Part shown: positions 14,904 to 32,996 of the stretch, piece after piece
Position numbering within the stretch: the first letter of the stretch is position 1
Layout of the letters: every line of letters begins with the position of its first letter
Assembly (NCBI RefSeq): GCF_012848855.1
Contig: NZ_CP051630.1
Span: 2,521,501-2,585,500, forward strand
From: Pyruvatibacter mobilis
Lineage (GTDB): Bacteria; Pseudomonadota; Alphaproteobacteria; CGMCC-115125
Direction: 5' to 3'
Length of the DNA: 64,000 bases
The notes under the pieces: model-generated
What the model was told of the DNA's origin: nothing
Database searches by the model: none
What the model saw: the letters and a program-made list of their open reading frames with translations, nothing else
Translations under genes and position numbers: made by a program

Positions 14904-15130
14904 GCGGTCCGAACAGACAAGGGGAGCGCTCAAGCATCAGCCAAAGCGAAGCCCTCGCCCAGACGGGAAAGGCGCAAGAATTCGCAAATCCGAGATTGGA
15001 CCTTTTCAACTCCGGAGCGTCATTTTCCGGATTGCGGGAATCGAACAACCCGACTACGGTCTGCGTGCAACCAGTTTCTGTGTGAGCAAAGTTACTGGAT
15101 CAATCATGTCGGCAGGAGGACATGGGCGCA
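14904..15130. promoter_or_regulatory. Divergent intergenic region between traG and the defence operon
   Basis: About 225 bp separate the minus-strand coupling protein from the plus-strand WYL gene, so promoters for both directions should lie here. An AGGAGG at about 15115 is the ribosome site for the WYL gene. I could not pick -35/-10 boxes or a clear operator palindrome by eye. A WYL-type autorepressor would be expected to bind here. Confidence 0.5.
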
Positions 15131-15997
15131 ATGAACAAGTCGGAGCTTCGCTGGGGCGTCGAGCGGCGTCTCGAGTTTATCGAGTTCCGGCTGTACTGGG
15201 AGGGGCATGTGAACCGCGGCGATCTGATGGAAGTTTTTGGCGTCTCGGTGAATCAGGCTTCGACCGATCTCAACCGTTATCTGGAGCTCGCGCCGGGCAA
15301 CATGCTCTACGATAAGAGCGAACGCACTTATGTGCGCGGCGATCACTTCTCGCCGAAATTTCTACAACCGGATGCGGGTCGTTATCTTTCACAGCTTCAT
15401 TTGCTTGATCAGGGGATCTTGGAGCGGTCCGATGCCTGGCTGGGCCATCTCCCGGAATTTGAAGCGTCGCCAACACCAGCCCGCGGGGTCGAGGCCCCGA
15501 TCCTTCGTTCAATTCTCAAGGCCATCGAAAACAGCGAAGCGATCGAGGTGCGATATCGGTCCATGTCAAACCCGGATCCCGTCTGGCGCTGGATCGCGCC
15601 ACATGCGCTCGGTTTTGACGGGTTCCGCTGGCATGCCCGGGCCTGGTGCCTGAAGGACGAGGTGTTCAAGGACTTTGTGCTTTCGCGCATGCTCAAGGAA
15701 CGAAGGCGCAAACCTTCAGAAATAGATCCGCAGGCTGACCTCGACTGGCACAGGAAAGTCGAGTTGGAGGTCGTCCCGCATCCGGCCCTGTCCGAAGCCC
15801 AGCGGGCCGCAATCGCGCTCGACTATGGCATGACCAATGGCAGCGCCAGTCTCTTGGTCAGAGGCGCTATGCTTTACTACACACTCCGCCGCCTGGGACT
15901 GGACACTGATCCCGACGCCCGCAAACCCCAGGATCAGCACATAATTTTGCAAAACCGCAGTCGGGTCCTTGATTCGGCAAACACCAATCTGTCGTGA
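15131..15997 (+). CDS. WYL-domain transcriptional regulator (BrxR/CapW type)
   Basis: A 288-aa regulator with an N-terminal winged-helix part (LRWGVERRLEFIEFRLYWEG, then VNRGDLMEVFGVSVNQAS) and a WYL-type ligand-binding domain. The diagnostic APHALGFDGFRWHARAWC lies at about residues 155-172. A C-terminal domain follows. WYL regulators of the BrxR/CapW group repress phage-defence operons and are relieved by nucleic-acid or nucleotide ligands. It is the first gene of the plus-strand operon, 10 bp before the giant helicase. ATGs at 15122 and 15131 both follow AGGAGG (2 and 11 bases); 15131 was chosen because 2 bases is too short. Confidence 0.88.
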   Translation: MNKSELRWGVERRLEFIEFRLYWEGHVNRGDLMEVFGVSVNQASTDLNRYLELAPGNMLYDKSERTYVRGDHFSPKFLQPDAGRYLSQLHLLDQGILERSDAWLGHLPEFEASPTPARGVEAPILRSILKAIENSEAIEVRYRSMSNPDPVWRWIAPHALGFDGFRWHARAWCLKDEVFKDFVLSRMLKERRRKPSEIDPQADLDWHRKVELEVVPHPALSEAQRAAIALDYGMTNGSASLLVRGAMLYYTLRRLGLDTDPDARKPQDQHIILQNRSRVLDSANTNLS

Positions 15998-16007
15998 GTG
16001 AAATGCA

Positions 16008-19000
16008 ATGAAAGCTTTTGAATTCGACCAGCATTTGATCACGGCCTATGAACGGTTCTCGCGTTCCTTCACCTCCATTCGGTCAAATGACCTGCGATCT
16101 GAAATTGATCGCCAGTATGACGAAGGGCGTTTTTGGCCTGAGGCATTGTTGTCACTGAATCCCCGCTATCGGTCGGACAAGAATATCGATGAACTTGTAG
16201 CGTCGGGCGATCTGGATAGCGCCACTGGCAAGGTTTTCCGCTTTGGTGACGTCCCGATGACGTTTTATCGGCACCAAGCCGAAGCCATCGCCAAGGCGAA
16301 AGCGGGTAAGAGTTTCGTCGTTACGACCGGCACGGGATCAGGAAAATCCATGTGCTTTTTTGTGCCGGTGGTGGACGCGATTATCCGGGCCTTACGCGCA
16401 GGAAAACCAAGAAAAACCAGGGCGATCATCGTTTATCCAATGAACGCGCTGGCTAATAGCCAGTTGAAGGAGATTGATAAATTCATCAGCCAGTCGGACC
16501 TTCCGGACAAGATGCGCCCAGTGATCAAGCGATATACCGGACAGGAAAGTCAGGAAGAGCGCCAGAAGATCGCAGCGAATCCACCGGATATACTTCTGAC
16601 AAACTATATGATGGCTGAGCTCCTTCTGACGCGTCAGGATAAGCTGGACGCGCAGGTGGTCGAGAATGCGAGCAGCTTGGAATTCATTATTCTGGATGAG
16701 CTGCATACCTACCGGGGGCGACAAGGCGCAGACGTGGCCGTTCTTGTCCGGCGACTTCGGGACAGATGCGCGCCCGACGGGGCGCCTGTATGCATCGGTA
16801 CTTCGGCCACGATGGCATCCGAGGGATCAGATGAAAGCAGAGCTGTTGCCGTGGCAAAAGTCGCCTCCCGTCTGTTCGGCGCGGATATCGGTCCCGATGC
16901 CGTCATTGATGAGTCTCTTCAGCGAGCTACGGATGACAATATCAGTTTGGCAGAAGCTATTTCTGCCTTGCCATCCGCTCTTGCCGAGGGCGTTCCGAAT
17001 GTTTTGGACGATCAGACACTCAGAACGCATCCATTAGCGGTCTGGACGGAGCTTGCTCTTGGCCTTGACGATGGGCTCGAGCTCAAACGGCAAAAGCCGG
17101 TTCCTTTCCAAAGTGCTGTCGATCGGCTCGTTGCAGACAGCGGTTCAAGCTCTGAAGTTTGCAAACGGGTTCTTCAGGATTTCCTGACCAAGGTCAGCCT
17201 CCCGGAGAGTGACAGAGGCGGAAGCGGAGAACGGGCATTTCTTGCGTTCAAACTTCACCGCTTCATCTCCGGCGCTGGTGAGGTCTTCACGACGCTGACA
17301 AAACATCCGCGAACCGTCCTGTTCGAAGGGCAGCTGGAGGATCCAAACGCGCCCGGAAACCGACTGTATCCAACACGCTTCTGCAGAAACTGCGGTCACG
17401 AATATCATGTCGTTACGAAGACTGACGATGACGGCCATACCAGATTTCTGCCGCGAGGAATCGACGATACACCACTTGAGTCCGAAGACGGTTCTGAGGT
17501 CGCTGGTTATCTCTGCCCCGTGCCAGAAGGCGACGCCGATTTTGTATTCAACGGAGACCTGAGCACGTTTCCCGAGAGCTGGCTTGAGGAACGCAATGGC
17601 ATGGAGCGGTTGCGGTCCTATCGCAGAGCGCGTGCACCTGTTTCGTTTTTTGTTGAACCCGATGGACGTCACAGTTCAGGCGGCCGGGAGTTCTTCTTTG
17701 TGCCGGGCAAATTCGCGTTCTGCCTTTGCTGTCAGGATGAACCTAATCAGGGCATGCGGGAACGCAGCAAACTTGCTGGCTTATCGGGCGAAGGCCGGAG
17801 TTCGGCGACAACGCTATTGGTGTCGAGCACCCTTGAATGGATGAATTCGGCCGAGAGTGGCGTTCCGGATACGAAGCGAAAGCTTCTCGGATTTACGGAT
17901 AACCGCCAGGACGCGGCGCTTCAGTCCGGTCATTTCAATGATTTTCTTTTCGTCAGTCTTTTGCGCGGCGCCATATTGCGGGCAATACTTGACGATGGCC
18001 ATGACGGCCTGAGTGAGGATGAATTCGGCCTCAGAGTCGTCAAGGCGCTTGGCTTCGTCTCATCCAATGCTGGCGCGCGGGTTCATTGGATGCTGGATCC
18101 ATCTGCGGGCGCCGTCATTCGTGAGGATGCGCAGCGCGCCCTCGCCAAAGTGCTTGCCCATCGAGTCTGGACAGATCTCCGTCGCGGGTGGCGTTACACG
18201 AATCCCAGCCTGTCAGTTCTCAATCTGATTGATGTGCGATTTGTTGGTCTTGAGGAAATTGCCAACGACCGCGAACGAATGATGGCTGTGCTGCCGGAGT
18301 TGGGAGAAGTCTCCGCCGACCAACGTCAACAACTCATCAAGGAACTGCTGAGCGCAATGCTCGCTGGTCTTGCGGTCAACACAGAGTCTCTCGACCTCGC
18401 GGTGCTCGACGGCGTGGCGCAGAAATCCAGATCGCTGCTCCGTTCGCCCTGGGCCATCGACAGTAAGGAAAAGCCTCGCGGGAGGTCTGCGCTGGTTCAG
18501 CGCGCACCCGGCAAGGGCGTGGTCAGCCTACGCGAAGAACAAACGCTACTCCGCGCGGGTCATAATTCTCGTATCGCCAGACTGATCAACAAGAATAGCG
18601 TCATCGGAACAAAACTGGGCAAAAATGACTACCTGGATTTTCTCGGGCGCCTTCTCGAACTTCTTTCCGATGAAGGTCTCGTTGTCCCCGTCGAGATCGA
18701 CACAAATGTCATGGGCTGGCGGCTTACGCCGTCGGCTGTCAGGCTCGTGCCAGGGGCAGCGCTACGGGACGTGGCTGCGCGGGGAAATGAGTATTTCCAT
18801 AACCTGTATCTCTCCATTGCGAATGATCTCGCCTTGGGGCGGAGCGCATATTGGGGGTTGGAAGGCCGGGAGCACACCGCACAGGTATCTCAAAAACAGC
18901 GCGAGTGGCGCGAATGGCGCTTCCGGTTCGAAAGCGACGACCAGAGCAATCTGCAGGGTTCTGAATACAGGACCGAGATAAAGGCGACAGGTGAGTCAGA

Positions 19001-21194
19001 CCAGTTCCTTCCGGCGCTCTTTTGTTCACCGACAATGGAACTCGGTGTTGATATCTCAGCACTGAACGCCGTTTACCTACGCAACGTGCCGCCAACGCCG
19101 GCCAACTATGCGCAACGCGCTGGACGTGCCGGGCGCTCTGGTCAGGCTGCGGTGGTGGTCGCGTATTGTGCTTCAGGGTCGCCACACGATCAGTATTTCT
19201 TTGATCGCCGCAACGATATGGTTGCCGGTGTTGTGAGGCCGCCAGCTCTCGACATCACAAATGAAGAACTCGTTCGCTCCCATCTTCATGCTGTCTGGCT
19301 TGCAGAATCCAAGCTGGCCCTGTCTCCGGACATCCCAGAAATACTCGATTTGCAAGCGGAGAAATTCCCGCTCAAAGACGACATCCTGAGCGCCATTAGC
19401 AAACCATCGCTGGTTTCCTCCGCAATGGTCCCCATGAAGCGCGTATTTCATGCCATTCTGGCGGCTGATGGCGGAGCGCTCCCAACATGGATGGATGATG
19501 CCGATGACTTCGTCCTCAGCGTGGCCATGGAAGCGCCGAGGTCGTTTGACCAGGCGTTTGGTCGATGGCGGGACCTCTATAAGTCAGCGCGCAGCCAACT
19601 GTCAGAGGCCAATGCTCGATCAGAGATAACGGGACTCTCAGGAGCTGATCGACGGAAGATCAAGTCGGCGCAAATTCAGGCGAGTGATCAGATCGCCATC
19701 CTTGAGCAAGGCAAGGCATCGAATGGTTCGGATTTCTACTCATATCGGTATCTGGCAACTGAGGGCTTTTTGCCGGGATATAATTTTCCACGACTGCCAC
19801 TTTACGCTTTTATTCCGGGTGAAGACAAAACCGGATCGTTTTTATCACGAGCTCGGTTCCTGGCGATTTCCGAGTTCGGCCCACGGAGTCTGATTTATCA
19901 TGAGGGCCGCGCCTATCGTGTCATGAAAGCGAAGCTGCCCCCGGAAGCACGAAGTGGTGACGGTTCGGAGCTTGCAACTAAGGATATCTTTATCTGCCAG
20001 GATTGTGGCGCTTGCCATGAAAATGAGGTGGAACGTTGTCATGGCTGCAACGCGCACATGGCAGGTGAAGTGCCGATCAAGAAGACACTGCGGATCGACA
20101 ATGTCGAGGCCATGCCCACCGAGCGCATTTCGGCAAATGATGAAGAGCGGGTGCGTCAGGGTTTTGACATTCAGACGGTCTTCTCCTGGCCTCGCAAGGA
20201 AGGACAGATTCAGGTCACCGATGCTGATTTCCGGTGTGGTGAGAAAAGTCTGTTGGCGCTGCAGTATGCCAACAGTGCCGAGATCAGTCGTTTGAACAAG
20301 GGTCTCAAGCGCCGACGGGATCAAACCGTCTTCGGCTTTTATATTGATCCAAGAACAGGGTATTGGGCCAAATCCGAGGATGAAGACGCAGAGACTGACG
20401 CGGCGCCGGACGTTGTGAGGCCCGTGCGGATTGTGCCGATCGTCAGGGACCACAAGAATGCGCTTTTGCTCCGGATCACAGATCCGCAAGCCTATACTCC
20501 TGAAACAATCACCACCCTGCAGCATGCCCTGCTCAGGGGCATTGAGGTCGTCTACCAGCTGGAGGAAGGTGAAGTATTGGGCGAGCCCTTGCCCGCACGG
20601 GACAATCGCCGGGCAATCCTTGCTTATGAAGCGACCGAAGGCGGCGCGGGCGTTCTGACGCGCCTTATCGATGACCCAAAGGCAATCGCGCTGGTGGCCA
20701 AGACGGCGCTTGAGCTGATGCACTTTCAAAATATCGACAAGGCGATTGGCGCAGGTGATGCCGCGTTGCTCGCTGACGCAGACCATGAGGCCTGCGTCAG
20801 AGGCTGCTATCGGTGCCTGCTCTCATATTTCAACCAGCCCGATCACGAGCAGATTGATCGGGCGAGCGATGAAGTGAAGCAGTTTCTGATTGACCTTGCC
20901 CGTGGCGAAACAATTGTTCTGCAAAGGATAAAGCCGGATGCGGGGGCGCATTTATGGCTCAATGCCTTTGCCGCAGCCAATCTGCCTAAACCAGATGCGT
21001 TGCATCTTGAACTCGGTGACTCGACGATCGAGTTTGGCTGGAAAACACATCGTGTCGCGGCAACTCTGCAAGCGGTGACAAATGAGCTGGCAGGCGAGGC
21101 CCTGGAAAAGGGTTGGGAGATCGTCTCTCTGCCCTCTAGTCCTGACGATGGCCTCCCATCTCAGCTGGTGACACTGTTGGGGGGCGACGCATGA
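16008..21194 (+). CDS. Giant DEAD/DEAH helicase with C-terminal DUF1998 (DruE / DrmA+DrmB-like)
   Basis: A 1728-aa superfamily 2 helicase. Visible in order: Q-like motif YRHQAEAI (about 87), Walker A GTGSGKS (108-114), DELH box (230-233), TSAT (265-268), CRNCGHEY (459) and CLCC (572-575) Cys sites, FTDNRQDA (629), motif V/VI SPTMELGVDISAL...QRAGRAGRSG (about 1010-1040), a CxxC...CxxC knuckle (about 1329-1346) and a DUF1998 end with CVRGCYRCLLSYF (about 1595). This is the architecture of Druantia DruE, and it also resembles DISARM DrmA and DrmB fused. It probably translocates on or remodels invading DNA. Its stop overlaps the start of the SNF2 gene by 4 bp. Family is firm; assignment to one named system is not. 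Confidence 0.9.
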   Translation: MKAFEFDQHLITAYERFSRSFTSIRSNDLRSEIDRQYDEGRFWPEALLSLNPRYRSDKNIDELVASGDLDSATGKVFRFGDVPMTFYRHQAEAIAKAKAGKSFVVTTGTGSGKSMCFFVPVVDAIIRALRAGKPRKTRAIIVYPMNALANSQLKEIDKFISQSDLPDKMRPVIKRYTGQESQEERQKIAANPPDILLTNYMMAELLLTRQDKLDAQVVENASSLEFIILDELHTYRGRQGADVAVLVRRLRDRCAPDGAPVCIGTSATMASEGSDESRAVAVAKVASRLFGADIGPDAVIDESLQRATDDNISLAEAISALPSALAEGVPNVLDDQTLRTHPLAVWTELALGLDDGLELKRQKPVPFQSAVDRLVADSGSSSEVCKRVLQDFLTKVSLPESDRGGSGERAFLAFKLHRFISGAGEVFTTLTKHPRTVLFEGQLEDPNAPGNRLYPTRFCRNCGHEYHVVTKTDDDGHTRFLPRGIDDTPLESEDGSEVAGYLCPVPEGDADFVFNGDLSTFPESWLEERNGMERLRSYRRARAPVSFFVEPDGRHSSGGREFFFVPGKFAFCLCCQDEPNQGMRERSKLAGLSGEGRSSATTLLVSSTLEWMNSAESGVPDTKRKLLGFTDNRQDAALQSGHFNDFLFVSLLRGAILRAILDDGHDGLSEDEFGLRVVKALGFVSSNAGARVHWMLDPSAGAVIREDAQRALAKVLAHRVWTDLRRGWRYTNPSLSVLNLIDVRFVGLEEIANDRERMMAVLPELGEVSADQRQQLIKELLSAMLAGLAVNTESLDLAVLDGVAQKSRSLLRSPWAIDSKEKPRGRSALVQRAPGKGVVSLREEQTLLRAGHNSRIARLINKNSVIGTKLGKNDYLDFLGRLLELLSDEGLVVPVEIDTNVMGWRLTPSAVRLVPGAALRDVAARGNEYFHNLYLSIANDLALGRSAYWGLEGREHTAQVSQKQREWREWRFRFESDDQSNLQGSEYRTEIKATGESDQFLPALFCSPTMELGVDISALNAVYLRNVPPTPANYAQRAGRAGRSGQAAVVVAYCASGSPHDQYFFDRRNDMVAGVVRPPALDITNEELVRSHLHAVWLAESKLALSPDIPEILDLQAEKFPLKDDILSAISKPSLVSSAMVPMKRVFHAILAADGGALPTWMDDADDFVLSVAMEAPRSFDQAFGRWRDLYKSARSQLSEANARSEITGLSGADRRKIKSAQIQASDQIAILEQGKASNGSDFYSYRYLATEGFLPGYNFPRLPLYAFIPGEDKTGSFLSRARFLAISEFGPRSLIYHEGRAYRVMKAKLPPEARSGDGSELATKDIFICQDCGACHENEVERCHGCNAHMAGEVPIKKTLRIDNVEAMPTERISANDEERVRQGFDIQTVFSWPRKEGQIQVTDADFRCGEKSLLALQYANSAEISRLNKGLKRRRDQTVFGFYIDPRTGYWAKSEDEDAETDAAPDVVRPVRIVPIVRDHKNALLLRITDPQAYTPETITTLQHALLRGIEVVYQLEEGEVLGEPLPARDNRRAILAYEATEGGAGVLTRLIDDPKAIALVAKTALELMHFQNIDKAIGAGDAALLADADHEACVRGCYRCLLSYFNQPDHEQIDRASDEVKQFLIDLARGETIVLQRIKPDAGAHLWLNAFAAANLPKPDALHLELGDSTIEFGWKTHRVAATLQAVTNELAGEALEKGWEIVSLPSSPDDGLPSQLVTLLGGDA

Positions 21195-23956
21195 GTTTCA
21201 ACGTATCACCGGGAGATCTTGTCCGGGCAAGAGGACGGGAGTGGGTCGCACTCCCTGCACCTGATAGTGACGTTCTGGCACTACGTCCGCTTTCTGGGAA
21301 CGAAAACGACATCGTTCTGCTCAACCCCGAACTCGAACTGACGACAGTGGAGCCTGCTCGTTTCGATCTGCCAACCGATGCGGTGCCAACTGTTCAATCG
21401 AAGGCGGCCCTGCTCAGCGACGCGCTGAGACTTACACTGCGTCGCGGCGCCGGCCCGTTCAGGTCGGCGGCTCATCTGGCCTTCGAGCCTCGTACTTATC
21501 AACTTGTGCCCTTGCTAATGGCTCTGAGGCTTCAGGTTCCGAGACTTCTCATTGCTGACGATGTGGGGATTGGGAAAACCATCGAAGCCGGACTAATCCT
21601 CCGAGAGTTCATGGACCGGGGCGAGGTAGACTCGTTTTCTGTACTCTGCCCGCCGCACCTCGTGGATCAATGGATCATTGAGCTCAAGGACCGGTTCGGG
21701 ATTGATGCGGTTCCGGTGACCTCGGGAACAGCAGCCCGTCTTGAACGCAATCTGCCCCTGGCCCAGACGCTGTTTGACGCATTTCCCTTTACCGTTGTCA
21801 GTCTTGACTACATCAAAGCTGAGAAGCGCCGGGATGGGTTTGCAAGAGCTTGCCCCGATTTCGTTATTGTGGATGAGGCTCACGCCTGCGTCGGCACTCA
21901 CAAGGGCAAACAGCAGCGCTTTGATCTCCTTCAGGGGCTTGCAAAAGACGTCAGTCGTCGCCTGATCATGCTGACTGCAACGCCGCATTCGGGCGATGAA
22001 GAGGCTTTCGCGCGGCTCCTATCACTCATCGATGGTGAATTCGCCAGCGCAGACTTTGACAATGTGCGCTATCGGGAGCGCCTCGCGCGGCATTTTGTTC
22101 AGCGCCGACGCGTGGACCTGATTGAAGGTGACTGGGATGAGACGCGGTCCTTTCCAAAACATGAGACCACGGAGTTTTCCTACCGGCTGACGGGACCGCA
22201 CCTGGACTTTCAGGAGGCGGTTATCGACTACTGCCTTGGCGTGGTGTCACGCGCGGGAAGTCAGCGGCGCGATCAAAGGTTGGCGTTCTGGGGAACGCTC
22301 GCGCTTATGCGCTGCGTTGGGTCGTCACCGGCCGCGGCGCTCAGTGCCCTGAGGAACCGCGCCAGCAATGAGACTGAGCGCCTCGAACCCCAGATATACG
22401 ATGAAGACGGCGATGACGAAGATGCAGTGGACCTCGAGCCGGGCACGGTCTTCACGTCGGACCCTGAACTGCTAGCGCTGCTTGATAAAGCATCAGGGCT
22501 CACAACCGAGACAGACCCGAAAATTGACGCGCTCGTCAGTGCCTTGAAACCTCTTATCAAAGACGGGGCAAACCCGGTCGTGTTTTGCCGCTATCTGGCA
22601 ACTGCGGAATATGTGAAGGAACGGCTCCGCAAGGCGTTCAACAAGGTCACTGTGGAAGCGGTCACCGGTGAACTGACACCCGATGAGCGCCGTGATCGGG
22701 TTGCCGAAATGGCGTCCGAAGATTCACAAAAGCAAACCCAGCGCATTCTTGTGGCCACCGATTGCCTGTCTGAGGGCATCAACCTCCAGCAACTCTTCGA
22801 CACCGTGGTTCACTACGATCTTTCGTGGAACCCGACACGCCACCAGCAGCGAGAGGGTCGCGTTGACCGCTTTGGGCAGCCTGCTGAACTGGTTCGGTCA
22901 ATCATGATGTTCTCGCCTGACAGCGCAATCGACGGCGCGGTTTTGGACGTCATCTTGCGAAAGGCAGAAGAGATCAGGAAAGCAACCGGCGTCACTGTTC
23001 CGCTACCGGAAGAACGCGGAGCGGTCACAGACGCCCTAATGGCGTCGATGATGCTGCGTCGCGGCGGACAGCAACAGCTTGCTCTGGATTTGCGCCTCGA
23101 TGACGGCACGCGCGCCATCGAGGCGCGGTGGCGCGATGCCAGTGAAAATGAAAAGAAATCACGCGCACGGTTTGCCCAGAACGCCATGAAGCCGAGTGAA
23201 GTCGCACCGGAATGGAATAAGGTGAAAGACCTGCTCGGCTCGCCGGATGATGCCAGGGTATTTGTTGATCTGACCATGAGGAAATTCGGCGTACCGCTCG
23301 AGAAGAAGGGCGCGGTCCATCTCGCCCATGTCCACGCATTGCAGCCGAGCCTGAAAGAGAAACTGGATCAGCGCGGACTCAAGGGATCAGTGAGGCTTGC
23401 CACTGCCGAACCGGCGCCTTCGGGAACCAGTCTTCTGACGCGGACCCATCCCTTGACATCTTCGCTGGCGGAAAGCCTGCTCGAAGCCTCTCTCGAACCT
23501 GAATCATTGCCCGATCTTGGGATCGGCCGCGTCGGCGCCTGGCCGACGCCAGCGGTGTCGGTCATAACGCGCATTGCTTTGCTGCGGATCCGGTACAAGC
23601 TGACTATTCATGCGCGGAAGGAAAGGCTTCTTCTTGCGGAGGAAGCTGCGCTTGTCGCGCTACAAGGCCAGACCCTCGTTGCGTCCGGCAACACGGTGCG
23701 CGACTGGCTCGGCACGCCGGCGACTGCTGACCTCGCAGACATTGCGCGTAAACGCCTGTCTGACGCTGCCAAGGCTGAGCTTCCTGCGATGCTTGAAGGT
23801 CCGCTTGCGGACTTTATCAGGCAACGAGCGGAGGAACTCGTGGAAGATCATGCCCGTCTGCGCGCCGCTGCAGGGTCAGCGTCCAGAGTTAGCGTCGAAG
23901 CCGTGCTGCCGCCGGATGTGATCGGGCTCTTTGTTCTCATCCCGGACGGGGTTTAA
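21191..23956 (+). CDS. SNF2-family helicase, DrmD-like
   Basis: A 921-aa Swi2/Snf2 ATPase. The N-terminal module starts SPGDLVRARGREWVALP, as in DISARM DrmD and related helicases. Walker A is DDVGIGKT (123-130), followed by LRE, the DEAH box (IVDEAHACVG, about 226), TATPHSGDEEAF and the helicase C-terminal domain VATDCLSEGINLQ...QREGRVDRFGQ (about 520-565). It lies between the DUF1998 helicase (4 bp overlap) and the methylase (2 bp gap), so the three genes are one translational block. In class 1 DISARM, drmD is paired with an adenine methylase gene, as here. Confidence 0.9.
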   Translation: MSFNVSPGDLVRARGREWVALPAPDSDVLALRPLSGNENDIVLLNPELELTTVEPARFDLPTDAVPTVQSKAALLSDALRLTLRRGAGPFRSAAHLAFEPRTYQLVPLLMALRLQVPRLLIADDVGIGKTIEAGLILREFMDRGEVDSFSVLCPPHLVDQWIIELKDRFGIDAVPVTSGTAARLERNLPLAQTLFDAFPFTVVSLDYIKAEKRRDGFARACPDFVIVDEAHACVGTHKGKQQRFDLLQGLAKDVSRRLIMLTATPHSGDEEAFARLLSLIDGEFASADFDNVRYRERLARHFVQRRRVDLIEGDWDETRSFPKHETTEFSYRLTGPHLDFQEAVIDYCLGVVSRAGSQRRDQRLAFWGTLALMRCVGSSPAAALSALRNRASNETERLEPQIYDEDGDDEDAVDLEPGTVFTSDPELLALLDKASGLTTETDPKIDALVSALKPLIKDGANPVVFCRYLATAEYVKERLRKAFNKVTVEAVTGELTPDERRDRVAEMASEDSQKQTQRILVATDCLSEGINLQQLFDTVVHYDLSWNPTRHQQREGRVDRFGQPAELVRSIMMFSPDSAIDGAVLDVILRKAEEIRKATGVTVPLPEERGAVTDALMASMMLRRGGQQQLALDLRLDDGTRAIEARWRDASENEKKSRARFAQNAMKPSEVAPEWNKVKDLLGSPDDARVFVDLTMRKFGVPLEKKGAVHLAHVHALQPSLKEKLDQRGLKGSVRLATAEPAPSGTSLLTRTHPLTSSLAESLLEASLEPESLPDLGIGRVGAWPTPAVSVITRIALLRIRYKLTIHARKERLLLAEEAALVALQGQTLVASGNTVRDWLGTPATADLADIARKRLSDAAKAELPAMLEGPLADFIRQRAEELVEDHARLRAAAGSASRVSVEAVLPPDVIGLFVLIPDGV

Positions 23957-23958
23957 TC

Positions 23959-26900
23959 ATGGCCCGTCGTCCTGTCACCGACCTTTCCGCCTGGCCATCG
24001 ATCAGCCTCGAAGGCAATCTGATTGCGCCCGCCATGCTGGCGCGGATCGATGAACGCGCCGCGCCTGAACAGAGCCCGGAAGACTATAGCGTCCGCAAGG
24101 GTCTGACGCTTCGCGAGGAAATCTCCACCGCCTTCCGGGTCGGCCAGTCGCATTTCGATGCCTTCAGCAAGCTGAGCAATCCGTCTGCCGACGCAACGCG
24201 CCGCTTCATGAAGGCCTTCCTGAAAGAGACGTTTGGGTTTGATGATATCGAGGATGGCGGAGGGCTGATCGCGCTCTCTGCTGGTGGTCATCGCATTCCT
24301 GTCATCGTCGTGCCGCCGGATGAAGACCGGCTCGACCGGCGCAGCGCGACGCTCTCGGTCGAGCGCTCCCGCTCGCCTGCCTTTGCGTTGCAGGACTATC
24401 TCAACGACGAGGATGACGCGCTCTGGGGCCTCGCGACCAATGGCACTGTCATCCGCCTGATGCGGGACAACGCCTCTCTGACGCGCCCCGCATTCATAGA
24501 AGCCGACCTTGCCCAGATATTCACCAACGAAGACGCTGCGTCGTTCGGTCTGCTCTGGCTGCTCATTCATCGCAGCCGCTTCGGAAATACAGGTGCCCCC
24601 GCGACAGACTGTGCGCTGGAGCGCTGGCGGGAAACGGGCACGAAGGAAGGCGAGGTTGCGCGTGACCGGCTCGCGGCGCAGGTCAAACTCGCCCTCAACA
24701 TTCTGGGTTCGGGCTTCCTTGAGGCCAATCCGGCGCTTGCGGCCAAGCTTAAGTCAGGCGAGCAAAACCTCACCGAGTGGTTCAACGAGTTGCTGCGTCT
24801 CGTCTACCGGCTGATCTTCCTGATGGTGGCCGAAGACCGAAACCTTCTGCACCCGGAGGTTTCCCGCGCCGAGGCCCGCAAGCTCTACGCCGATGGCTAC
24901 AGCCTCGCCCATCTTCGCGCCCAGTGTTTTCGCGGGGCGACCTGGGATCGCCACCATGACCGCTATGAAGGGGTCAAGATCGTCTTCCGCTCACTGGCGG
25001 GCGGACAGGAAGCCCTGGCGCTGCCCGCGCTTGGCGGGCTCTTTGCGCCAAACATGCTGCCAAGCCTTGAAACGGCGAAGCTGCGTAACCGCGCCTTCAT
25101 GGAGGCGCTCTATCGCCTGTCATGGCTGCAGGGCAAAACCGGCATGGCGCCGGTCAACTGGCGCGCCATGGAGACCGAGGAACTGGGGTCGGTCTATGAA
25201 TCGCTGCTCGAACTCCAGCCCCAGCTCGGCGATGACGGCAAGTCGCTCGTCTTTGCCTCCGATGCGGCCGAGCAGAAGGGCAATCAGCGCAAGACCACCG
25301 GCTCCTACTACACGCCCGACAGCCTCGTGCAGGCGCTGCTCGATACCGCCCTCGATCCCGTCCTCGACAAGACAGAAGCCGAAGCGGACGACCCGGAAGC
25401 CGCGCTCCTCAGTCTGTCCGTCATCGACCCTGCCTGCGGCTCGGGTCACTTCCTGCTCGCGGCGGCAAGACGGATTGCGACGCGCGTCGCCCGTATCCGT
25501 GCGGATGGCACACCGGCGCAGGAGGATTTCCGTCATGCCCTCCGCGATGTCGCGCGGTCCTGCATCCACGGGGTGGATCGCAACCCGATGGCGGTGGAGC
25601 TGACCAAGGTCGCGCTCTGGATCGAGACCGTCGATCCCGGCCTGCCGCTGGGCTTCTTCGATGCGCAGATCCGCTGCGGCGATGCGCTGCTCGGCGTGTT
25701 TGATCTGGCCGTTCTGGAAGAGGGTATTCCGGATGCGGCCTACAAGCCGCTGACCGGCGATGATAAGGACGTCGCCAAATACTACCGCGAGAAGAACAAG
25801 CGCGAGGTGGCGGAGCGGGACCGGATCGCAACCGGCTTCGGCTTCAATCGCCAGCAGGATTTCATGCGCGAGTTTGCGCGCCTGCGCGCCATGCCGGAAG
25901 ACACGGTGCGGCAGATCGAGGCAAAGGCCGAAAAGCTGCGTGGACTGACGGCGGAAGGCGCGACAGCCTGGACGCTGGAGACCGCCTGCGATCTCTATGT
26001 CTCGGCCTTCCTCCTGCCCAAAACAAAAGAAGACCCCCATGCTGGACCGGACGGCCTGCCGCGCCGGGGCACTGAAACTGTGCCGACCTCCGGCGCGATC
26101 TGGGAATGGCTGCGCGGGGTGCAACTGTTCGGCCCGCTTTTCGGCAGCAGCATCGACGCCGCCCGCAAGGCCCGCGCCTTCCACTGGCCGCTTGAGTTTC
26201 CGGATGTCATGGCGGGCGGCGGTTTTGATGTCGTGCTGGGGAATCCACCGTGGGAGCGGATCAAGCTACAGGAGCAGGAGTTCTTTGCGACACTGTCGCC
26301 CGAGATTGCAAGCGCAGCGAACAAAGCCGCGCGGGAAAAGCTGATCAAGGCGTTGGAGAAGGCCGAGCCGGGCACCCCCGATCGCACGCTGTTCGATGCC
26401 TTCACCATGGCCAAGCGTGAGGCTGAGGCGAGCAGCGAGTTCGCTCGCGTGCCGGGTGAGGATGGAGGGCGTTTCGCCCTGACCGGACGGGGCGACGTGA
26501 ATACCTACGCGCTATTCGCGGAACTGTTCGCCAACCTTTCGCGGAAGCGCGCCGGGGTGATTGTACCAACTGGAATCGCCACGGATGCGACGACCGCGCC
26601 ATTCTTTGCACATCTGGTTGAGGCTCAGCGACTTGCGCGGTTGATAGATTTCGAGAACTCAGCGCCGATTTTTTCAGGCGTCCACAGAAGCTTCAAGTTC
26701 ACGCTTCTGACCTTGGGGCGAAAGGAAAAAGAAGCGGTCTTCGCATTTTTCCTGACCGATCCAAGCCAAATAATTGATGAGGCGAGAAACTTCTCACTCT
26801 CTGCGGAAACCATCGGAAAATTGAATCCGAATACAAAAACTGCGCCGGTTGTGAGGTCCCGGGCGGACGCCGAATTGATATCAAAATTCTACTCCGCAAC

Positions 26901-28440
26901 AGATGTGTTTTTGAATGAGTCAAGCGGCCCGGATGGAAACCCATGGGAAGCTGCATTCTATACTCGAATATGGCATATGGCCGAAGACTCTGAGTGGTTT
27001 CGAACCGCTCATGATTTAGCTAATCTTGGCCTTGTCAAAGATGGGGCTGACTGGATTGATCCAGCCGACATCGGAAACCGTTATGTGCCGCTCTACGAGG
27101 CCAAGATGATGCACATCTACGATCATCGATGGTCGAGTTATGGCATGACCGACGATGCAGCGACGGAGTTGACGAAGGAACAGAAGGCAGACCCTGAGAC
27201 TGATCCAATTCCACGATATTGGGTTCCACACTCAGAAGTTGCTACACGCCTTGAACGTCAGGGCTGGCGACGTGAGTGGCTATATGGATGGCGAAAAATT
27301 ACGAACACCACGAATGAGCGAACCCTTATCTCAGCCGTCTTTCCACGTTCCGCGGCTGGCGATTCCCTGCCGCTCGCATTGTCAGCCGAAAGAACCGAAC
27401 TGGTTCCGGGGCTAATCGCGAACCTTTCTTCTTTGCCATTGGACTATGCAGAGCGAAGAAAGCTCGGCGGCACGAATCTGACTTTCCAATACTTATTTCA
27501 ACTGCCTGTATTCCCTCCGAACTTCTACACCGACCCCCGCCTCGCCTTCATCACCCCGCGCGTGCTGGAACTCACCTACACCTCTCACAGCCTCGCCCCC
27601 TTCGCCCGCGATCTGGGCCATGACGGCCCGCCCTTTGGCTGGGATGAGGACCGCCGCGCGGCCTTACGCGCCGATCTCGACGCCTTCTACGCCCGCGCCT
27701 ACGGCCTGACCCGCGACGAGCTGCGCTACATTCTCGATCCCGCAGACGTCATGGGCGAGGACTACCCGTCCGAAACCTTCCGTGTCCTGATGGAAAAGGA
27801 AATCCGCCTCCACGGCGAATACCGCACCCGCCGCCTCGTCCTCGAAGCCTGGGACCGGATGGAAGCGAACGGCACCTTCGCCGAACTCGGCCTTGCCGAC
27901 GGGGTCGCAACGCCTGCCCAACAACCCATCCAACTCCCGCCACTCGTTACCTTGCCGGATGGCGCATGGGCGCGTGCCGCGCCGTCTCCCCAGCATGATC
28001 CGACAGCCGCACTGGCTGCAATCCTGAAGTCGCTTGACGAGCCGACGCCCATTAGGACGGTGAGATTGGTTGCAGTTATGATGCTGGAGCCTCATCTTCT
28101 CACCCCGCTGCTCGCCACCGATCAGCAAGCGCAATGGCGCCGCCTCGTTGGCCCGGAAGCCGAACCCCATTCCGGAAATGTCATTGGCTTTGCTGCGCGG
28201 ACCACACCGGGTTGGAATACCGCGCTTACAAACCATCGCGGCAATGGAAGACTGATTGAGGATCGCGCGGCAGGGACCTGGGCGGCTGGAGCGGGGCTTG
28301 AAGGTTTCGATACAGCAGGTTGGCCAGACGGTCGCGCGGAATTTGTTCTCACAGCTCTCAGCGCACTCGATATCGACGTCACAGTAAGCTCAGCACCTGA
28401 TGAAGTGCGGGACTGGATCGCCAATGCCGCAGCCGGATGA
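23959..28440 (+). CDS. Eco57I/DrmMI-like adenine-specific DNA methyltransferase
   Basis: A 1493-aa N6-adenine methylase. After a roughly 440-residue N-terminal region come [12 protein letters not shown] (about 448), the SAM-binding motif [15 protein letters not shown] (about 490), [17 protein letters not shown], and the catalytic motif IV NPPW (about 762, in [11 protein letters not shown]). The part after NPPW, expected to hold target recognition, is markedly AT-richer (about 26.57-27.51 kb) than both sides. It probably marks self DNA for the helicase system. I saw no clear PD-(D/E)xK motif, so restriction activity in the same chain is not claimed. The stop overlaps the next gene. Confidence 0.9.
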
Positions 28441-30400
28441 CCTCTTCCCAGAGCCGCCATTGAGCGTTGAGGTTCCAGCTGGCCTCACGCAACCGAGGCT
28501 TTGGGTGCGGCGTCTGAAGATCTGGGCCGAACCTGGCGGCGAAGTCATCCGTGATATCGAGCTTCGGCCCGGATTAAATATCATCTGGTCTCCGGACGGA
28601 GGTGATGATCCCGTTGGGTCCCAAGCCGGTATTGGCCACGGCAGCGGCAAGACACTGCTCTGTCGGCTGCTCCGCTACTGCCTCGGGGAGACCCGATTTG
28701 CCGATGAGGTGCAACGCGACGCAATCTCCACGGCGTTCCTGAATGGCGTTGTCGGCGCTGAAGTCATGCTGGACGGTATCTGCTGGGCCGTCGCCCGACC
28801 TCTCGGCGTTAACAGAAAACACTTTGCGATCGAGGGGGGTGACCTGGATACCGTTGCCTCGATGGAAGGTACCGCATCTGGTATCGAACCTTTACTGGAC
28901 GCCATTGAGAACAACATCCTTGGGAACCAAACGGCCCAGCTCGCGCGGCTACCATCAGGGCAAAAAGCTTGGCCAGTGGCTCTGGCCTGGGCCTCACGGG
29001 ATCAGGAGTGCCGGTTCAACAATGTACTCGAATGGCGGTCGCCTTCGTCGGAGTCGGACGCGCCACAACCCGCAAGCGGCGAAGCCAAAGGCCCCCGACT
29101 GCTCGCGCTACGCGCATTTGTTAACGCGATTACTGAAGACGAGCAGGCCGCACGAAGCCGCGAACAACAGACTGCCAGTGAGCTTGAGAATTCGAAGCGG
29201 CAGAAGTCCTTCCTGGAATGGGATCAACAACGCCGGATTGAGCGACTCATTCGTGATCTGGGATTGGACGGAGAGTCCCTTCCAGAGATGCCGTTGCTCA
29301 TAGACTCCTTAAAGTCGGTTGCAGAAGAACGCCTTGCAGCTGCTGCGAAGTTGCCCGCGGGTGATAAGGGTGAGTTGGCTGCGGCCCGCCGTGATCTTCA
29401 GAACGCAAGCACCCAGCTGCGAGAACTCGAACTGAAACTCGAACGTCTGAATGCACAAAAGCCAGTCGAAGAGAAACTCCTGGCACAAATCAACAGCGCG
29501 CTACCAGGCCTTTCAGCTGCCGCTCAAACCGCCGCGACCCCTGTCTGCCCAATCTGTGAGGTGCCTATCGATAAGGTTCTCGCTGACGGCTGTAAACTGT
29601 CTCACAAACTGCATGACGAAGCTGAATGTCGAGCGCGCTGGGAAGCGCAACGTCGAGAGGCAAGTGATCAGCAAGCCAAGATCGATGGCCTGAGATCAGA
29701 GATCGAGGCTAGCAAGCCTCAAATCGCTATAGCGCAGCAGGCGAGGCAACAGGCGGAAGATAGGGTTCGTCGGCTCGAGCAGGCGGCTGATGCCCGAAAC
29801 TCAACTTGGCGCTCTGCGACAAGATACGTCGATGACGTCCAGCGTTCCGCTGACCTGGTCGACGAACTGGAGAAAGCAAAAGTCGGTATCAGCGCTCTTG
29901 ATGGCGACCTGCAGCGCGCGCGCGAACAGCTTCGGGGCTTCGAAGGTAAGCAGGCCAAAGCAATTCATGCGATATCTGAGAAATTCTCTGCGATAATCCG
30001 ATTGCTACTCGGGGAAGAGGCGAAAGGCACCGTTCGTCTCACTGGCAAGGGTATCGACTTAACGGTTGACGTCGGAGGAGACCGCCGGACGGCTGCTATT
30101 CAATCGCTCAAGGTTCTTGCGTTCGACCTCGCTTGTCTCTGTCTAAGTATTGAGGGCCGAACGCGGATCCCCGCATTCTTCATCCATGACAGCCCACGCG
30201 AAGCAGATCTCGGTCAGACCATCTACGAAAGATATTTCCAGATACTGCTCGATATCGAAGAGCGACTTGCCGGTGCAGTATTTCAATATGTGATCACGAC
30301 CACAACGAAGCCCCCAGTATCGCTCAATCAACTGCCGTGGCGTCGCGAGGTATTGCGAGGCGAGCCGGGCGATCAACGCTTGCTCCGGCGCAATTTGTAA
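28424..30400 (+). CDS. SMC/Rad50-like ATPase with CxxC hook
   Basis: A 658-aa ATPase with Walker A GHGSGKT (71-77), long coiled coils, a CPIC motif at about residue 377 in the middle of the coil (zinc-hook-like, with a further Cys/His-rich stretch after it) and a C-terminal half-site ending FFIHDSPREADLG, where Walker B-type acidic residues are expected. It resembles DUF2326-type or other stand-alone SMC-like proteins of defence loci. The start at 28424 (MPQPDDLF) overlaps the methylase by 17 bp; an ATG at 28400 would overlap by 41 bp. It could sense DNA ends or topology, but that is inference. The next gene follows after 17 bp. Confidence 0.82.
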   Translation: MPQPDDLFPEPPLSVEVPAGLTQPRLWVRRLKIWAEPGGEVIRDIELRPGLNIIWSPDGGDDPVGSQAGIGHGSGKTLLCRLLRYCLGETRFADEVQRDAISTAFLNGVVGAEVMLDGICWAVARPLGVNRKHFAIEGGDLDTVASMEGTASGIEPLLDAIENNILGNQTAQLARLPSGQKAWPVALAWASRDQECRFNNVLEWRSPSSESDAPQPASGEAKGPRLLALRAFVNAITEDEQAARSREQQTASELENSKRQKSFLEWDQQRRIERLIRDLGLDGESLPEMPLLIDSLKSVAEERLAAAAKLPAGDKGELAAARRDLQNASTQLRELELKLERLNAQKPVEEKLLAQINSALPGLSAAAQTAATPVCPICEVPIDKVLADGCKLSHKLHDEAECRARWEAQRREASDQQAKIDGLRSEIEASKPQIAIAQQARQQAEDRVRRLEQAADARNSTWRSATRYVDDVQRSADLVDELEKAKVGISALDGDLQRAREQLRGFEGKQAKAIHAISEKFSAIIRLLLGEEAKGTVRLTGKGIDLTVDVGGDRRTAAIQSLKVLAFDLACLCLSIEGRTRIPAFFIHDSPREADLGQTIYERYFQILLDIEERLAGAVFQYVITTTTKPPVSLNQLPWRREVLRGEPGDQRLLRRNL

Positions 30401-30417
30401 AAAACGGAACTCAACCC

Positions 30418-32238
30418 ATGCAAACTGGAATATTGTCAGTACAGAGATTGTTTGATCGCGAGGTACACTACGCCGTCCCGCTCTATCAGCGCCCTTATGT
30501 CTGGAACGAAGAAGAACAGTGGCGGCCACTATGGGATGATTTGTGCCCTCTCGCCGATATGGTCGCGCAAGGAAAAGAGGGGCGCGCTCACTTCCTGGGC
30601 GCGTCGGTACAGGAAGTGATCCCGGTTCCGGCTGGCACCACTGAAGTCCGCCGCGTTATTGACGGCCAACAGCGGATGACAACGCTTCAGATACTTCTAA
30701 AAGCATTTCGCGACGTTGCCGTTGCCTTGGGCCATCCAAACTATGGCGATGCCGTATTACCTCTCGTTCGAAACCGGGACCCACTGATCGTTGACAACGC
30801 CAAGAAGCAAAAACTTTGGCCAACTCGCGCCGATCAGTCAGACTATCAGCAAGTGATGGACGCGCATTCTCCTTCAGGGTTGTTGCTAGCACTTGGGAAG
30901 CCGGAACAGTCCTATCCTCTGGAAAATCACGCGATCGCTAACGCTTACCTGTTCTTTTACCGTGAGATCGTTTCCTGGGTCGAAGCCTCCGAGGGGAACA
31001 TCGAGGAACGTCTGAAGGGACTATATGGCGCGATCCGCGACCGTCTGAGGCTCGTCGTGATAGATTTGGACGATAAGGACGACGCCCAGGCGATCTTCGA
31101 AACGCTGAATGCGCGAGGAGCTCCCTTATTGTCAGCGGACCTTGTGAAGAACTCTCTGCTGAGCGACTTGTCGCCTTCCGAGGCGGAGGACGCCTATCGG
31201 ATGTACTGGCAGAGCTTTGATGCGAACGGTGCTTTCTGGCGCAAACTCATCGGCCGTGGCCACGCACAGAGAGCACGAATAGAGACCTTTCTGCAAAACG
31301 CATTGACGCTGATGACGGGCGAAGCGGTAAGTGCTGGTCACTTGTACAACGCATATCGTGATTTCGCTGCCACTGAAGAAGCAGGAAGCGCCAAGGATAT
31401 GTTGGCCAGGTTCAAACGTCTGGGCGACATCTTTTACAAACTTCAACAACCTCAATATGATCGCCGTCTATCGGACTTCTTCTACCGCCTTGGCGTCCTA
31501 GACGTCGTGACTGCTTGGCCGTTTATTTTGGCTCTGTACGAGAAGTACGAGGACAGGCCAGCCACCGTCAAAAATGTACTCATCGATCTGGAGAGCTATC
31601 TGGTCCGTCGAATGGTATGTCGTTTGAGCACCAGAGGCTACGGCAGCGCATTTTCAAAACTGGCGGGCATCGTCAAAAGTGCAGATGCCGATATTCAAGC
31701 AGCTATTCGTGCGGAGTTGCTTGATGGTACAGCTGAAGTTGATCGCTTCCCGACAGACGAAGAGTTCGAACGAGCGTGGACTTCCAACCCTCTTTATCAA
31801 AACTTGACGCGCCCAAGGATCAGAATGCTTCTTGAGGCGATGGAGGAGGCCGCCCGTACTGGATTTGCGGAAACAGATAGGGCTCCGAGGAATCTGACGG
31901 TCGAGCACGTCATGCCGCAAGGCTGGCGCGAAAACTGGGCAGTGTTATCAAACGTTCGCGCAGACGAACGCGATGTGAGAATTCACACGATTGGAAATCT
32001 GACGTTGTTGAATGGTAAGTTCAACACATACCAGTCTAATCGACCATGGGACTGCGTAGGCGAAGACCTGTCAGCTCCGCAAAGTGTTGGAAAAAGAGAG
32101 AACCTAAAAAAGCACACAACCCTCGCGCTCAACCGGGAGCTTTGTGAAGAAGAAACGTGGACAGAGACCCAGATATCCGATCGGGCCAAAACCCTTTTTG
32201 ATTATGCGAAAAGTATCTGGGCAAGACCGTCGGCATAA
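30418..32238 (+). CDS. GmrSD-like DUF262/DUF1524 protein
   Basis: A 606-aa protein with an N-terminal DUF262 ParB-like NTPase/nuclease domain (VPLYQRPYVW at about 20, and the signature VIDGQQRMTTLQ at about 80) and a C-terminal DUF1524 His-Me nuclease domain (NLTVEHVMPQGW at about 495, then HTIGNLTLLNGKFN at about 524). This is the layout of the GmrSD type IV restriction family and of BrxU-like proteins, which cut modified phage DNA. Here it is the penultimate gene of the helicase-methylase operon, with its stop overlapping the HNH gene. An in-frame upstream extension to 30337 lies within the preceding gene and is rejected. Its target modification is unknown. Confidence 0.9.
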   Translation: MQTGILSVQRLFDREVHYAVPLYQRPYVWNEEEQWRPLWDDLCPLADMVAQGKEGRAHFLGASVQEVIPVPAGTTEVRRVIDGQQRMTTLQILLKAFRDVAVALGHPNYGDAVLPLVRNRDPLIVDNAKKQKLWPTRADQSDYQQVMDAHSPSGLLLALGKPEQSYPLENHAIANAYLFFYREIVSWVEASEGNIEERLKGLYGAIRDRLRLVVIDLDDKDDAQAIFETLNARGAPLLSADLVKNSLLSDLSPSEAEDAYRMYWQSFDANGAFWRKLIGRGHAQRARIETFLQNALTLMTGEAVSAGHLYNAYRDFAATEEAGSAKDMLARFKRLGDIFYKLQQPQYDRRLSDFFYRLGVLDVVTAWPFILALYEKYEDRPATVKNVLIDLESYLVRRMVCRLSTRGYGSAFSKLAGIVKSADADIQAAIRAELLDGTAEVDRFPTDEEFERAWTSNPLYQNLTRPRIRMLLEAMEEAARTGFAETDRAPRNLTVEHVMPQGWRENWAVLSNVRADERDVRIHTIGNLTLLNGKFNTYQSNRPWDCVGEDLSAPQSVGKRENLKKHTTLALNRELCEEETWTETQISDRAKTLFDYAKSIWARPSA

Positions 32239-32996
32239 TGAGTATCGTCGCGCCCCAATCCTTCGTCGTTTCAACCGAGTGCAGCAAGGCTGCCGAACAG
32301 AACGGTTTTCGTCGTCGACTTGGCGAAACAGACGGGTGGGCGGCGTTCCAGTCGACAACGGCGCAAGGGACAATCTGGCTCGCCGCCGAAGGGGCACCGG
32401 GGCCATGGTACTTGGCGCTGGATCATTCCGGTGTGATCGCTGAAGCAGGTCTTGCAACGGCGGCTGTGAATGGCCCGGGCAAAGCGCGTTTCAGGTTCGA
32501 GTCGCTCCGGGAACTCTATGCCGTGCTACCTCGTATCTATGCGCTCGCCGCAAGCCTTCCGGATGCGCCGCTTCGGGTTTTCGAGAAGGAGATTGAAGGC
32601 CTTCCCAGATCGACGGAAGCCGAGCGACTCGTCGTTCAGCGGATCGGACAGGGTGTGTTCCGCGAGAGCTTGCTGGAATACTGGGATGGGAAATGCCCTC
32701 TCACTGGGATCGATGATGCTGCCTTGCTGCGCGCCTCTCACATCATTCCCTGGAAAGACTGTGCGTCAGATGCTGAGCGCCTCGATGTGCACAACGGTCT
32801 TCTGCTTTCGGCGCTTTGGGACGCAGCCTTCGACAGAGGTCTGGTGACCTTCGATGACGGTGGAGAGCCTCAATACTCTTCGATCCTTGGATGGTCTGCG
32901 CGGGAAAATCTCAATTGGACAACGCCGATTGCGTTGACCCAAAGCCACACTGTCCGGCTGGCATGGCATAGGAGCAATGTCTTCGTTACCGGCTGA
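32238..32996 (+). CDS. HNH endonuclease
   Basis: A 252-aa protein whose C-terminal half has an HNH nuclease signature: CPLTGI (about 153), ASHIIPWKDC (His-containing core, about 165) and LDVHNGLLLSALWDAAFDRG (Asn/His residues, about 183-200). This is the subfamily often annotated as HNH endonuclease of restriction systems. The N-terminal 110 residues have no motif I recognise and may bind the target or a partner. It overlaps the GmrSD-like gene by 1 bp and ends the plus-strand operon, meeting the relaxase gene tail to tail. Confidence 0.88.
   Translation: MSIVAPQSFVVSTECSKAAEQNGFRRRLGETDGWAAFQSTTAQGTIWLAAEGAPGPWYLALDHSGVIAEAGLATAAVNGPGKARFRFESLRELYAVLPRIYALAASLPDAPLRVFEKEIEGLPRSTEAERLVVQRIGQGVFRESLLEYWDGKCPLTGIDDAALLRASHIIPWKDCASDAERLDVHNGLLLSALWDAAFDRGLVTFDDGGEPQYSSILGWSARENLNWTTPIALTQSHTVRLAWHRSNVFVTG

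Follow-up and report, generated by a model that had tools for sequence, protein, structure and literature searches.

We analyzed a 64,000-nucleotide stretch of the Pyruvatibacter mobilis genome (contig NZ_CP051630.1, positions 2,521,501 to 2,585,500; hereafter the window) that carries an operon of seven plus-strand genes at 15131-32996, between traG and a relaxase gene that both lie on the opposite strand. By gene order and content, we assign the core of this operon to a distinct subclade of the ARMADA type I systems. Two exchangeable units appear to be set on this one core: a nuclease, which is either a Vsr domain in cis or an HNH protein in trans, and an SMC ATPase coupled to the DNA-reading subunit. 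The genes and their domains are as follows.

15131..15997, plus strand: WYL-domain protein P0001, a probable regulator, optional (Pfam WYL, 3e-11)
16008..21194, plus strand: YprA/DUF1998-family superfamily 2 helicase P0002, ArmC-like in ARMADA terms, 1728 amino acids (aa) (PADLOC DruE models, to 4e-81; Pfam DEAD, Helicase_C, MZB)
20808..21191, plus strand: C-terminal tail of P0002, beyond the Zn cluster, with a degenerate Vsr/PD-(D/E)xK domain (alignment with the intact tails of HNH-less relatives)
21191..23956, plus strand: SNF2/RapA-type helicase P0003, BrxHII/DrmD/DpdE-like, ArmA-like, 921 aa (PADLOC DpdE 4e-187, DrmD 7e-78)
23959..28440, plus strand: PglX/DrmMI-like N6-adenine DNA methylase P0004, ArmB-like, 1493 aa (Pfam Eco57I 2e-17; PADLOC DrmMI 1e-72)
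26288..27921, plus strand: target-recognition part of the methylase, aa ~777-1321 (blastn against the relatives L029 and L031)
27934..28437, plus strand: C-terminal tail domain of the methylase, aa ~1326-1493, predicted SMC partner (tail profile, structure model, fold search)
28436..30400, plus strand: LmuB/Rad50-like SMC ATPase P0005, ~655 aa (PADLOC LmuB 2e-17; no Pfam match)
30415..32238, plus strand: GmrSD-family (DUF262+DUF1524) Type IV restriction enzyme P0006, optional cargo (Pfam GmrSD_N 4e-31, GmrSD_C 2e-25)
32238..32996, plus strand: HNH_2 endonuclease P0007 (Pfam HNH_2 5e-12)

Operon content and the ARMADA type I core

The tight packing described in the original prediction was confirmed, with spacings between -5 and +14 nucleotides (nt): in order, +10, -4, +2, -5, +14 and -1 nt, computed with the SMC start at 28436 and the GmrSD start at 30415. 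The domains it had named (WYL, DUF1998 helicase, SNF2, adenine methylase, SMC ATPase, GmrSD-like and HNH) also held up in Pfam and PADLOC searches. P0002 joins DEAD, Helicase_C and MZB (DUF1998) in a single chain, with Walker A (GTGSGKS), DELH and MZB intact, and P0003 carries GIGKT, DEAH, TATPH and QREGRVDRFGQ. The catalytic motifs of P0004 are intact (DPACGSGHF at 490 and NPPW at 762; Eco57I/N6_Mtase), and P0006 is an intact single-chain GmrSD in which QRPYVW, DGQQR, EHVMP and GNLTL are present.

The first enzyme of the operon is P0002, followed by P0003 and P0004 at spacings of -4 and +2 nt. This is the order published for the ARMADA type I core, which consists of a YprA/DUF1998 helicase, a BrxHII-like SNF2 helicase and a PglX-like methylase (Bell et al. 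2025 preprint, PMC12458937). Since core content and order match ARMADA I, we rejected the hybrid of DISARM, Druantia and GmrSD parts that had been proposed. The earlier label of P0003 as a DrmD-type SNF2 protein survived in part: it is an SNF2 helicase that matches DrmD, but DpdE is closest and its score lies under the NCBI DrmD cut-off (294 versus 610 bits). In ARMADA types I and II the helicase tail is described as a predicted active Vsr nuclease, which is typical but not stated as invariable (PMC12458937). This motif is lost in the window, and since the core matches despite that loss, we filed the operon as a variant subclade. The GajB-like helicase with a RelE domain that belongs to ARMADA type II was not found among the seven proteins of the operon (PADLOC, Pfam). 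What is already known is the ARMADA type I core; the HNH protein, the tail-SMC module and GmrSD are additions beyond the main text of PMC12458937, which has no mention of SMC or GmrSD and names HNH only in the title of a reference.

PADLOC 2.0 models match the operon as scattered families (DruE, DpdE, DrmMI, LmuB, mREase_IV and HNH), and no single named PADLOC 2.0 set spans the whole of it. Tools based on hidden Markov models would call these loci as scattered pieces of Druantia, Dpd, DISARM, restriction-modification (R-M) and Lamassu systems.

Relatives on plasmids were collected by the methylase (L003-L012, L108-L115) and by its tail (L116-L118), GTDB species genomes were searched by the SMC (80 loci, L028-L107), and further genomes were added. 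Dozens of genera carry the core, the SMC and HNH together. An ARMADA-type methylase immediately precedes about 70 of the 80 SMC genes, with SNF2 and YprA upstream where contigs extend far enough; as the SMC was the search query, its frequency is not readable from these 80 loci. SMC relatives are rare (7 of 398 Pseudomonadota genomes), and among 398 Pseudomonadota genomes sampled evenly only two tails were found. Phage records gave no SMC match. One IMG/VR contig (L153) carries an SMC relative with 36% identity.

The SMC ATPase and the methylase tail domain

For most of the plasmid relatives, the alignment with P0004 stops at residue ~1305, and the full-length matches are those with an adjoining SMC gene. 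With a profile built from P0004 residues 1326-1493, the ~170-aa tail and the SMC were both present in 86 loci and both absent from 13. Of the nine SMC-positive loci that had no tail match, L046, L048 and L063 are truncated or degenerate, and the other six (L127-L132) fall in a distant SMC subfamily. Among the remnants, L048 has the N-terminal part of YprA joined straight to the SMC, and L063 has a broken HNH gene. In L127, L129, L131 and L132 the ARMADA-type methylase is split into chains, and the recognition part stands alone beside the distant SMC relative. On a tree of the SNF2 proteins from 87 loci, the SMC state changes about 9 times, and the tail follows the SMC in every one of the 6 supported independent comparisons (two-sided p=0.03). 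This co-variation argues that the SMC is coupled to the methylase tail domain and not loosely added.

The same tail was found outside ARMADA. In four loci from Hydrogenophaga, Methylibium and other Burkholderiales (L078, L079, L084 and L086) it forms the C-terminus of HsdS, and an SMC gene is next. The HsdS of L078 matches Pfam Methylase_S (4e-28) and PADLOC Specificity_I (5e-88), and HsdR- and HsdM-type genes lie upstream of HsdS in the three longer loci (L078:1916-11914, L079:1918-11971 and L084:2066-11962). L084 also has a YhcG/DUF1016-like frame between HsdM and HsdS. The SMCs of these Type I R-M loci group with ARMADA SMCs of Caballeronia and Paraburkholderia at 100% in the Shimodaira-Hasegawa-like approximate likelihood ratio test (SH-aLRT), next to the SMCs of L116 and L117 and deep within the ARMADA SMCs. 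From this nested position, it seems that the module passed from ARMADA to Type I R-M. In all of these cases, the chain that bears the tail is the chain that reads DNA sequence. Because tail and SMC also occur on HsdS, they constitute a portable module, which is the most interesting part of the locus. In the main texts of open-licence papers, we found no published SMC partner joined to HsdS.

The SMC resembles LmuB of Lamassu. Profile-profile comparison (hhalign) with the LmuB family gave 99.5% probability over 570 columns, versus 5.9% for an RloC-like control. Among 87 SMC proteins, Walker A is present in 85 and a CPxC-type hook in 82; the usual Walker B DE was found in none, and HDSPxEAD stands in its place in 79. 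The window SMC has Walker A GHGSGKT, a CPIC hook and a Walker B-like HDSPREAD without the catalytic Glu. LmuB itself is reported to have a zinc hook and a Glu-to-Gln change, and has been proposed as the likely, Rad50-like sensor (review PMC10586767). For the methylase tail, an AlphaFold2 model (predicted local distance difference test, pLDDT, 90.8) had LmuC chains as its two best PDB folds (9ny5_C and 9uxh_D), both weak (Foldseek E 0.19, with a template modeling score, TM, of 0.40, and E 0.28). PDB sequence searches with the SMC and with the tail gave no convincing relative. The tail had no sequence match to sampled LmuC in hhalign or PADLOC, and its identification as LmuC by sequence was rejected; a LmuC-like tail is a lead. 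On these likenesses we tentatively suggest that a Lamassu-type sensor pair, the LmuB-like SMC plus a LmuC-like domain, may have become a plug-in for restriction systems. Its partner would be the tail on the DNA-reading subunit (the ARMADA methylase or HsdS), and the SMC would signal to a modification-based system instead of to LmuA. Provided that it is DNA structure that the SMC reports, such systems would read sequence marks plus DNA shape.

Alternatively, the SMC could act as an anti-anti-restriction guard, or as a dimer clamp that steadies the methylase or HsdS on DNA, and thus serve control of modification and not attack. Two features would fit such a role: in ARMADA as in Type I R-M the SMC is tied to the subunit that recognizes DNA, the part common to modification and restriction, and the Walker B catalytic Glu is absent. 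Its homology to LmuB, the presumed trigger of the effector in LmuB's own systems, speaks against it, and we consider a guard or clamp unlikely.

Probable nuclease exchange, optional cargo and genomic setting

HNH lies directly after the SMC (<=100 nt) in 54 of the 65 loci that have both, and also occurs in ARMADA loci that have no SMC (L008-L010, L012, L108 and L111). Helicase tail alignments of the scorable relatives divided sharply by HNH. With HNH, the Vsr motif was lost in 56 loci and intact in 0; without it, the motif was intact in 19 and lost in 1. The intact motif of the HNH-less relatives reads 'PDFxY...(Y/F)(I/C)DGxxH' and is of the Vsr/PD-(D/E)xK type. The lone HNH-less locus with a lost motif (Kozakia, L011) has an IS21 element inserted right after the methylase, and the tails of L127 and L129 ('ADFGY..YIDGPHH') are intact by eye and outside the Vsr regular expression. 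A structure model of the window helicase tail (pLDDT 83; predicted TM score, pTM, 0.57) gave weak fold matches, among which PvuRts1I ranked 7 and Vsr (1cw0) 10, so the identity of this tail rests mainly on alignment with intact relatives. At L073:1805-17362, HNH is present together with a half-degraded Vsr motif ('ADFYY..VMLGTP'), and a DrmD-like SNF2 gene lies between SMC and HNH; this locus appears to be a possible transitional form between the Vsr and HNH states.

On the SNF2 tree, 3 changes are required for the HNH state and 2 for that of Vsr. The cis-to-trans swap of the nuclease looks like one old event, perhaps two, that was then kept across many lineages; many independent swaps are not supported, given 1-2 transitions on the tree. 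With the states separated by so few transitions, Vsr decay and HNH could also be unrelated lineage traits, HNH being a hitch-hiker and the system acting without cutting or via host nucleases. Yet HNH is kept in 56 of 56 scorable Vsr-less members (the Kozakia locus apart) while other cargo varies and the SMC changes about 9 times, and the Vsr-less, HNH-positive group spans Alpha-, Beta- and Gammaproteobacteria plus myxobacterial, acidobacterial and verrucomicrobial records. We therefore hold unrelated traits to be quite unlikely and favor replacement of the Vsr nuclease by HNH.

Something lies between SMC and HNH in 11 of the 65 loci: GmrSD (window, L041), a GmrSD_N protein (L107), a PD-(D/E)xK protein (L101), YhcG (L090), a UvrD-like protein (L077) and the DrmD-like protein of L073, the rest being unassigned or degenerate. 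A GmrSD homolog at this position was found only in L028, which is of the same lineage, and L041. GmrSD is thus optional cargo and not a conserved part of the operon. GmrSD-type DUF262 genes stand beside ARMADA I operons elsewhere (L012:19940-21844, L008:1020-2978 and L116:13839-15677); those of L008 and L012 had no blastp match to the window GmrSD at 1e-5. WYL is likewise optional: among 8 relatives, one (Tropicimonas, L033/G746) has it, at 36 nt upstream of YprA, and the two nearest, L029 and L031, lack it anywhere in their genomes. With GmrSD and WYL optional, we rejected the seven genes as one conserved set. The earlier proposal of one defense system holds for the core, SMC and HNH and not for GmrSD and WYL; likewise, of the last three genes whose co-occurrence with the first four had been in question, SMC and HNH stay with the core and GmrSD does not.

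The recognition part of the methylase also appears to be exchanged. Over 18419-26288 the window DNA is 92% identical to L029 and 84% to L031 (blastn). Nothing is alignable to either at 26288-27921, and similarity is back at 27921, at the tail, with sharp borders. The gap matches the expected recognition region, as it would if this part had been replaced between near-identical operons. Such a replaced recognition part is the usual look of specificity switching in restriction systems.

The immediate neighbors of the operon are:

12939-14933, minus strand: traG, left neighbor
33022-34953, minus strand: relaxase gene, right neighbor

Homologs of these two genes are adjacent to each other in the relatives G004 and G051, which indicates that the operon, 18 kb long, was inserted between the two; a search of three further genomes of the genus found neither. 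In the simplest reading, the operon is carried as cargo by a conjugative element. It is matched at 99.98% by a record of Hyphomonas sp. (L028). At the left edge of the window (40-2595) lies an 851-aa AAA_13/SMC-type ATPase (PADLOC candidate family PDC-S06, 2e-168) that weakly resembles RloC/PrrC.

Proposed mechanism and comparison with known systems

We favor, with moderate confidence, an antiphage system of an ARMADA I subclade, whose biochemical steps we infer as follows. The ArmB-like methylase would mark host DNA at a sequence set by its exchangeable recognition domain, and the SNF2 and YprA helicases would translocate on and unwind unmarked invading DNA. HNH would make the cut in trans, the YprA helicase having lost its built-in Vsr nuclease. 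The LmuB/Rad50-like SMC is predicted to dock on the methylase tail and may be a DNA-structure sensor or clamp (for ends, hairpins or replication forms) that licenses attack, like the presumed role of LmuB in Lamassu. GmrSD could be an inserted second restriction enzyme, directed at phages whose bases are modified, and WYL an optional regulator.

Several points weigh against this reading. In the main text of PMC12458937, a phage test is given only for ARMADA type II, which is antiphage and non-abortive and requires all four genes, and none for type I. The association of HNH with Vsr loss comes from 1-2 transitions of the SNF2 tree and not from many independent events. The SMC module is missing from some ARMADA I loci and is thus not essential to every one of them. 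Likeness of the tail to LmuC is by fold only (Foldseek E 0.19, TM 0.40), without a profile match to sampled LmuC. Two neighboring systems, an ARMADA I core with an appended Lamassu-like abortive cassette of SMC, GmrSD and HNH, are improbable: LmuB-like SMC systems with HNH effectors are known (review PMC10586767) and HNH and SMC are each lacking in some ARMADA loci, but across 86 loci the SMC is not free-standing and comes with the tail fused to the methylase or HsdS, HNH also occurs in SMC-less ARMADA loci and tracks the helicase Vsr state, and GmrSD is not conserved.

Among known systems, GmrSD Type IV restriction fits P0006 alone, as cargo rather than as the system. Druantia shares the giant DUF1998 helicase, for which the best PADLOC scores are those of DruE models, whereas a methylase and an SNF2 helicase are present here; none of its partners (DruA-D, DruH and others) is among the seven proteins, where only the DruE-like helicase was matched. 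Class 1 DISARM shares the SNF2 helicase and the PglX/DrmMI-like adenine methylase, but here DUF1998 is fused to the helicase in a single chain, for which Druantia models give the best scores. As had been noted before, neither a separate DrmB nor the phospholipase D-type (PLD) protein DrmC is among the seven proteins (PADLOC, Pfam). Lamassu (ABC-3C; LmuA-LmuC-LmuB) shares the LmuB-like Rad50-type ATPase of ~650 aa, with its CPxC hook and altered Walker B, and may share a small partner domain, whose best, weak, fold matches here are to LmuC. Unlike in Lamassu, this partner is fused to the methylase or HsdS and has no sequence match to sampled LmuC, and no LmuA effector model matched among the seven proteins. 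ARMADA type I has the same YprA/DUF1998 helicase, BrxHII-like SNF2 helicase and PglX-like methylase in the same order, and this operon differs from it in the lost Vsr motif, the HNH in trans, the tail-SMC module and the GmrSD cargo.

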